Assembly: GCF_000017505.1 (NCBI RefSeq)
Contig: NC_009675.1
Span: 2,852,001 to 2,916,000, forward strand
DNA length: 64,000 bases
Source: Anaeromyxobacter sp. Fw109-5
GTDB taxonomy: Bacteria; Myxococcota; Myxococcia; Myxococcales; Anaeromyxobacteraceae
Direction of reading: 5' to 3'
The number at the start of each line of letters is the position of its first letter. Position 1 is the stretch's first letter. A program made the position numbers and the translations under genes. Below, piece by piece: positions 25,308 to 26,189 of this stretch. The notes under the pieces were generated by a model. It made no database searches. It was given only the letters and a program-made list of their open reading frames with translations, and had not been told where the DNA came from.

Positions 25308-26189
25308 GTGAAGAAGGAACTCACCCGCAGAAACCTGCTCGGCCGCGCGGGCCTCGCCCTCGGCGGCGCCGTTGCGATCGGATCGCTCGCGTGCGGCAGC
25401 GACGACTCGGATCCTCAGCCCCAGCCGCAGCCGCAGGAAGGGCCGCAGGTCGCGGACTTCCCGTACAAGAAGCATCTCGCCGCGGACTTCCGGCTGGACG
25501 TCGCCGCCGTCAAGGAGGCCGCCTACCACGCCTACTACAACGGCGGCTGCTGCCACGCAGCGTACAGCGCGCTGCTCGGAGACCTCCAGCGCGCGGGCGC
25601 GCCGTTCACCCTCCTGCCGCTCGGGTTCGGCAAGTTCGGGGCCGGCGGGATCGCGAGCTACGGCTCGATCTGCGGTGCGGCCCTCGGCGGCGCGCTGATC
25701 ATCAACATGGTCGTCGAGGATCCCGCGGCGCCGGCGCCGGCGGCCCGGAACCCGCTCATCGTCGAGCTCATGCGCTGGTACGAGCGCTATGCGTTTCCCG
25801 AGTTCGTCCCGAACGCGATCGACGCCGCCGAGCAGGGCAAGACGACCATCGCCTTCGACGACACGAACCCGACCCTGAAGGTCGTCCCCGGGTCGCACCT
25901 CTGCCACGCGTCCGTGACCACCTGGTGCGCCGCGAACGGGGTGGCCGCGACGAGCCCGGACAAGCTCGCCCGCTGCGCCCGCCTGAGCGCCGACGTCGCG
26001 GGCAAGACCGCCGAGCTCCTGAACGCGTACCTCGCCGGCGAGACGTTCACCGCGACCCCGCTCGACGACGCGTCGAAGGGGTGCGGGGGCTGCCACTCGA
26101 AGGACTCGGCCGCGGTCGGCCCGAGCGTCGCTTCCGGGATGTCCTGCAACAGCTGCCACCCCGGCCACACGACGTACCCGCACCCGTAG
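25308..26189 (+). CDS. Tat-exported dihaem cytochrome, split-Soret / C_GCAxxG type
   Basis: 293 residues from the GTG at 25308, which has AGGGAG 5-10 bases upstream. The N-terminus VKKELTRRNLLGRAG carries a twin-arginine motif and a lipobox-like LACG at about Cys30. A C_GCAxxG_C_C domain follows (NGGCCHAAYSA, SICGAALGGALI). The C-terminal part has two haem c sites, CGGCH and CNSCH, in the last 35 residues. This is the make-up of split-Soret cytochromes, periplasmic haem proteins of sulfate and metal reducers whose physiological role is open. The periplasmic location is inferred from the signal. Confidence 0.8.
   Translation: MKKELTRRNLLGRAGLALGGAVAIGSLACGSDDSDPQPQPQPQEGPQVADFPYKKHLAADFRLDVAAVKEAAYHAYYNGGCCHAAYSALLGDLQRAGAPFTLLPLGFGKFGAGGIASYGSICGAALGGALIINMVVEDPAAPAPAARNPLIVELMRWYERYAFPEFVPNAIDAAEQGKTTIAFDDTNPTLKVVPGSHLCHASVTTWCAANGVAATSPDKLARCARLSADVAGKTAELLNAYLAGETFTATPLDDASKGCGGCHSKDSAAVGPSVASGMSCNSCHPGHTTYPHP

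Follow-up and report, generated by a model that had tools for sequence, protein, structure and literature searches.

Split-Soret cytochromes and the C_GCAxxG_C_C domain

The split-Soret cytochrome c (SSC) of Desulfovibrio desulfuricans ATCC 27774 is known from a crystal structure (PDB entry 1h21), the title of which reports a novel iron center. Stacked hemes in a dimer and a split Soret band characterize proteins of this kind. The Desulfovibrio protein reportedly gives the EPR signal of an iron-sulfur center, possibly [2Fe-2S], that is absent from the aerobic 1h21 crystal, and each chain is said to carry two bis-His hemes, with one His of each coming from the other chain. Its N-terminal part belongs to the C_GCAxxG_C_C family (Pfam ID PF09719), which is labeled “putative redox-active protein” in Pfam. 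Several further SSCs have been mentioned in the literature. Twin-arginine signal peptides have been predicted for archaeal split-Soret cytochromes (PMC4429474), and SO0939 of Shewanella, a split-soret diheme cytochrome, appears among the putative Tat substrates in Table 1 of PMC3623810. According to PMC8105010, the Pyrodictium SSC is associated with a formate dehydrogenase cytochrome b subunit. In the open-license literature searched, which lacks most subscription journals, we found no discussion of an Anaeromyxobacter split-Soret cytochrome; the one paper naming both does so in separate contexts.

An SSC homolog in Anaeromyxobacter

The window analyzed here is a stretch of 64,000 nucleotides from the genome of Anaeromyxobacter sp. 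Fw109-5, which consists of 5,277,990 bases in a single contig. Its positions 25308..26189 on the forward strand, the strand of all window features given below, encode a 293-aa protein with a GTG start and a TAG stop (26187-26189), identified as an SSC homolog by its reading frame and homology; a first-pass annotation of this DNA had the extent of the gene exactly right. The GTG start at 25308 is borne out by the starts of the orthologs, since GTG occupies the same position in two of them (L002 and L003) and ATG is found there, within a residue or two, in the other five. The open frame of L002 opens just five codons upstream of the L002 start, and the longer frame that runs from 24900 in the window is therefore mechanical.

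By both sequence and fold, the product is a full-length homolog of SSC in the wide sense. A phmmer search matched its residues 62-287 to 1h21 with an E value of 2.8e-27. PF09719 scored 33.9 bits in the protein search against Pfam, above its cut-off of 27, and 25.2 bits, below the cut-off, at the same place in a six-frame genome search; from the Pfam match, the structural model, and a profile alignment, the domain spans approximately residues 61-244 (25488..26039). The C_GCAxxG_C_C subfamily model TIGR01909 gave 15.6 bits against a cut-off of 47.4. The Desulfovibrio-type SSC equivalog model NF047622 gave 147.9 bits, far below its cut-off of 400, whereas L083 from Desulfovibrio scored 510.7 bits; the window protein is therefore a divergent homolog that falls outside this equivalog.

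An AlphaFold2 model built from 53 sequences (alignment A5, comprising 53 of the 86 SSCs) had a mean pLDDT of 85.4 and a pTM of 0.81. The only solved structure matching it in Foldseek below an E value of 0.001 was 1h21 (E = 7.6e-11), and VIA-align superimposed the two over 224 aligned residues with a Z score of 25.6 and an rmsd of 3.7. Structure prediction of the N-terminal domain, which the first-pass annotation had proposed as a check, thus yields the fold of 1h21; the label “split-Soret-like” given there named the right family and understated a homology that extends over the full length. Mean pLDDT exceeded 90 in 14 of the 19 ten-residue blocks of residues 51-240 and was 79-89 in the other five. 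Along the heme tail, residues 251-293, the mean values were 84, 63, 61, 78, and 60, as would be expected if the tail becomes ordered only with heme.

Distribution and phylogeny of SSCs

The host genome contains a single SSC copy. Eight of the nine genomes of the genus have an SSC match: six besides the host carry a close ortholog (57-67%), each along with a second, distant paralog, and one genome (G003) has a distant SSC only. In the phylum as a whole, an SSC match at 1e-8 was found in 10 of the 195 genomes. A scan of the wider collection produced 107 loci, 80 of which were confirmed; these come from Acidobacteriota, Archaeoglobaceae, Chloroflexota, Bacillota, Desulfovibrionaceae, and other groups. 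The 87-row alignment used below left out seven of these 80 loci, four of them broken or cut (L066, L080, L088, and L100) and three near copies of others (L033, L034, and L036); L010, L011, L013, and L017 were likewise not used in the SSC alignment. A few rows of alignments A1, A2, and A4 have shortened N termini, namely, L016, which starts late in all three, L015, which lacks its first residue in A1 and A2, and L035, which is short by one residue in A4; none of the counts given here uses those N termini.

In the 87-row tree, the window protein grouped with its seven orthologs (support 100/99); 1h21 lies in the Desulfovibrio clade, which is separate. The branching point shared by L062 and the window clade carries a flag for long branches meeting there.

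Gene context was dropped as a guide to function because the neighbors proved uninformative and pointed to no partner. No informative neighbors were found at six of the seven orthologous loci compared with wide flanks (L018 to L023, that is, all except the G002 locus), where the neighbors were alike solely within the pairs L018/L019 and L020/L021; the ORF caller used in this comparison was a rough one, which at some loci did not call even the SSC. Among the neighbors listed for the wider set of SSC loci, computed for 73 of them, no recurrent one was seen by eye.

Twin-arginine signal and putative lipobox

The first 29 residues (25308..25394) form a Tat-type signal peptide, as judged by comparison of the orthologs: they contain the sequence TRRNLL, a hydrophobic stretch, and a putative lipobox with Cys29. 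The twin arginines R7 and R8 (25326..25331), found in MKKELTRRNLLGRAGLALGG, are followed by the hydrophobic stretch in an arrangement that is conserved in the orthologs and typical of a Tat motif; R7 is present in all 53 rows of alignment A5 and R8 in at least 90%. The Tat signal model TIGR01409 gave 15.8 bits, below its cut-off of 16.7, while in the relatives L045 and L048 it gave 19.6 and 17.6 bits, respectively. An RR pair is present in 81 of the 86 SSCs, from both bacteria and archaea: in 78 of these, it aligns with R7-R8, and in three (L016, L040, and L060), it is found in frame just upstream of the called start. Four of the remaining SSCs have RK (L077, L081, L086, and L107) and one has RS (L074). 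Of the 78 SSCs with an aligned pair, 62 have Ser or Thr directly before the RR. Thus, the reading of the arginine pair as part of a Tat-type signal is upheld by conservation, despite the TIGR01409 score.

For comparison, we inspected other multiheme ORFs of the host genome, taking as such the 22 with two or more CxxCH motifs that came from 60 loci (30 of 38 plus 30 of 72 matches), a sample that does not comprise every cytochrome. None of these 22 had a clear Tat motif. A loose Tat rule flagged two of them, L127, where the motif depends on a far upstream start, and L152, in which RRR abuts the hydrophobic stretch; neither contains S/T-R-R-x-F/L. With RR in 81 of the 86 SSCs against no clear case in the 22 multiheme ORFs, and with the heme-free C_GCAxxG_C_C proteins described below being leaderless, Tat appears to accompany the exported, heme-bearing form of the C_GCAxxG_C_C domain and, in this sample, not heme c generally. 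The first-pass annotation had singled out Tat export of a heme c protein as notable. As far as sequence comparison can tell, a Tat-type signal is the rule in the sampled SSC family rather than a special trait of this gene, and it has already been predicted in print for other members.

The lipobox of the window protein, GSLAC, is a weak one, with Ser at position -3 and recognized by a loose pattern, compared to LQAC, VQAC, or LGAC in the other seven orthologs. Its Cys29 (25392..25394), presumed to be lipidated, is nevertheless conserved in all eight proteins. Overall, 21 of the 86 SSCs have a lipobox Cys, a number obtained from 22 pattern matches by discounting L060, where the match is the first cluster Cys; they include five Archaeoglobaceae rows and some from Chloroflexota and Bacillota.

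Predicted metal cluster and heme ligands

Four Cys residues are invariant in all 87 aligned rows and are the presumed ligands of a metal cluster: Cys81 (25548..25550), Cys122 in a CGA motif (25671..25673), Cys199 in an LCH motif (25902..25907, together with His200), and Cys223 (25974..25976). A fifth, Cys207, is found in 71 of the 87. All 87 rows have His200 and both heme-binding sites, CGGCH at residues 259-263 (26082..26096) and CNSCH at residues 280-284 (26145..26159). The two CxxCH motifs, twin arginine, presumed lipobox Cys, and C_GCAxxG_C_C domain are all present as first annotated. All 8 proteins of the ortholog clade keep the twin arginines R7 and R8, the two CxxCH motifs, and each of the four Cys, and the combination is therefore not a product of chance.

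The four Cys recur in heme-free members of PF09719. Ten such proteins from the same phylum, which by eye start without a signal and have no heme tail, were aligned, and their four invariant Cys align with Cys81, Cys122, Cys199, and Cys223 (hhalign probability, 92.2; E = 6e-7). These are 10 of 17 PF09719 loci; the rest were L178, whose open frame does not take in the 5' end, the double-domain forms L181/L201, L194, and L195, as well as L191 (a broken SSC) and the low-scoring L192 with a single CxxCH. A model of one heme-free member (L175; pLDDT, 89.7) was superimposed by VIA-align on residues 27-191 of 1h21 with a Z score of 11.8, the next row scoring 4.6; helical models can reach such Z scores by arrangement alone, and this match counts together with the hhalign result. 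Foldseek alone did not match the L175 model to 1h21. Because the four invariant Cys are common to the leaderless heme-free homologs and an iron center has been reported for 1h21, the N-terminal domain very likely binds a metal cluster. The first-pass annotation had suggested that this domain binds a cofactor and must therefore fold in the cytoplasm first; the cofactor is supported by the four Cys, the heme-free homologs, and the 1h21 iron center, and its insertion before export is what we infer.

Two sequences outside the SSC alignment deserve mention here. The host genome also encodes a heme-free, leaderless C_GCAxxG_C_C protein (L030, G000:C1:571306-571638; PF09719, 28.9 bits), which would serve as a cytoplasmic counterpart in comparisons of cluster binding. 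A relative from the same family (G043) has an apparent broken SSC (L191:1501-1794), with a Tat-type stretch and an LCH motif, in which the frame leaves into unrelated sequence before any CxxCH.

His200 is the presumed distal ligand of one heme, and a His in the C-terminal tail, His292 (26181..26183), that of the second. In 84 of the 86 SSCs, the tail has a His beyond the last CxxCH; L008 and L014 are without one. Together, His200 and the tail His would supply just the number of ligands needed for two bis-His hemes per chain. If both readings hold, the cluster ligand Cys199 and the heme ligand His200 adjoin in the chain.

The window clade has its own marks next to the first cluster Cys (25551..25556). 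His83, two residues from the presumed cluster ligand Cys81, is conserved in all eight members, whereas 77 of the other 79 rows have Tyr or Phe; Cys82 is found in seven of the eight, compared to six of the 79. The occurrence of this His in a lipobox-bearing clade is possibly new. One may speculate that the Anaeromyxobacter clade has a lipid-anchored protein with a re-tuned cluster (C81-C82-H83 in place of C-x-Tyr/Phe) of altered ligation or potential, and that all C_GCAxxG_C_C proteins are four-Cys iron-sulfur proteins, of which SSC would be the exported version matured in two steps. We put this proposal forward as an outside chance.

Maturation and function

The explanation that we favor, and consider probable, is that the SSC homolog is an exported, likely membrane-anchored electron-transfer protein, with a cluster domain that folds inside, export by Tat, and heme c attachment outside. 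According to this scheme, in which we infer both the cluster and the order of the steps, the domain would fold in the cytoplasm around an iron-sulfur center held by Cys81, Cys122, Cys199, and Cys223, and the folded domain would cross via Tat with the heme tail still open. Cys29 would be lipidated, and the cytochrome c maturation machinery would put two hemes on the tail. Dimerization would then complete the bis-His ligation, each chain contributing two further ligands, His200 and the tail His292. Electrons could move between the cluster and the hemes, Cys199 and His200 being neighbors in the chain, and on to periplasmic partners. Matches to TatC and three to the Cytochrom_C_asm family are present in the host genome.

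Both the cofactor and the export route could be read differently. The four Cys might serve as redox-active thiols or disulfides with no metal bound, Tat being used simply because the domain folds fast. Such a reading would suit the “putative redox-active” name of PF09719 and the crystallization of 1h21 reportedly without its center, but the title of that entry itself reports an iron center and exactly four Cys are invariant in both the heme and the heme-free forms, which makes a metal-free site unlikely. We consider it highly improbable that the arginine pair is incidental and that the protein is exported by Sec, as other heme c proteins are, with the cluster, if any, forming outside. The sub-threshold TIGR01409 score, the lack of a clear Tat motif in the sampled other multiheme ORFs of the host genome, and the RK or RS in 5 of the 86 SSCs would all be compatible with Sec. 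Yet this reading would have to accommodate an R7 that all 53 rows share and an R8 found in at least 90% of them, RR in 81 of 86 bacterial and archaeal SSCs, frequently preceded by Ser or Thr (62 of 78), and the Tat signals predicted by others, in the sources cited above, for archaeal SSC and Shewanella SO0939.

As for function, the protein could be an enzyme, e.g., a periplasmic oxyanion or sulfur-compound reductase, rather than an electron carrier. The Desulfovibrio ssc gene is described in PMC5701242 as lowered by NO and as having earlier been reported to be induced more strongly by nitrate than by sulfate, which would be in line with an enzymatic role. However, His200 and the tail His would let both hemes be six-coordinate, so that no open heme site is indicated, and three genomes have paralogs located downstream of hydrogenase genes, fitting an electron carrier. 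Also, PMC4215793 counts D. alaskensis ssc mutants among those without a fitness defect, a result behind which its authors allow for redundancy. An enzyme is therefore quite unlikely, and the most likely role of the SSC homolog is that of a periplasmic electron carrier.

Other SSC variants

In a third group of SSCs, found in relatives of Anaeromyxobacter (L008, L014, and L017), the gene follows, on the same strand, that of a Tat-type NiFe/NiFeSe-like hydrogenase small subunit. The respective loci are L026:6861-10096, L027 (minus strand), and L028:6859-10144; the small subunit was recognized by family scan in L026 and by motif in all three. A hydrogenase large-subunit motif lies between the small subunit and the SSC in L026 and L027, with a 42-base gap in L026. 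This arrangement suggests that these SSCs, which lack the tail His, are electron partners of a periplasmic hydrogenase.

In addition, SSCs of Bacteroidota, Ignavibacteriota, and candidate division KSB1 combine an RK or RS signal with a type IX secretion sorting domain at the C terminus. They are encoded at L074:6526-7644, L081:3486-4598, L086:4125-5243, and L107:1004-2116; TIGR04183 scored above its cut-off in L074, L086, and L107, as did PF18962 in L081. These are possibly cell-surface proteins, which would cross the inner membrane via Sec or a variant of Tat before type IX secretion.

Comparison with known systems

The arrangement described here is that of a known family and is mostly ordinary. 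A Tat-type signal and four Cys conserved across bacteria and archaea make cluster-then-heme maturation a clear prediction; SSC would be a small case of a single chain with two places of maturation, the iron-sulfur center being made inside and heme c outside. The fold link also suggests cluster binding as the function of the heme-free C_GCAxxG_C_C proteins, and the parts of most value are this wider prediction and the His83 variant.

With the heme-free proteins, the window protein shares the four Cys and, judging from the L175 model, the fold of residues 27-191 of 1h21; the ten that were aligned differ in having neither an export signal nor a heme tail. The archaeal SSCs of Archaeoglobaceae and Desulfurococcales (PMC4429474) are likewise diheme proteins with predicted twin-arginine signals, and the five Archaeoglobaceae rows noted above also have a presumed lipobox Cys, but they occupy a separate part of the tree and none has His83. 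The D. desulfuricans SSC (1h21), 31-34% identical to the window protein, has the same fold over 224 residues, the same four Cys, the LCH motif, and two C-terminal CxxCH motifs, and its nearest row in the tree, L083, shares the Tat-type signal. The two differ in the presumed lipobox Cys, which is present in the window protein and absent, by pattern, from every Desulfovibrionaceae row, and in the residues that follow the first cluster Cys, Cys-His in the window protein and Gly-Phe in 1h21.
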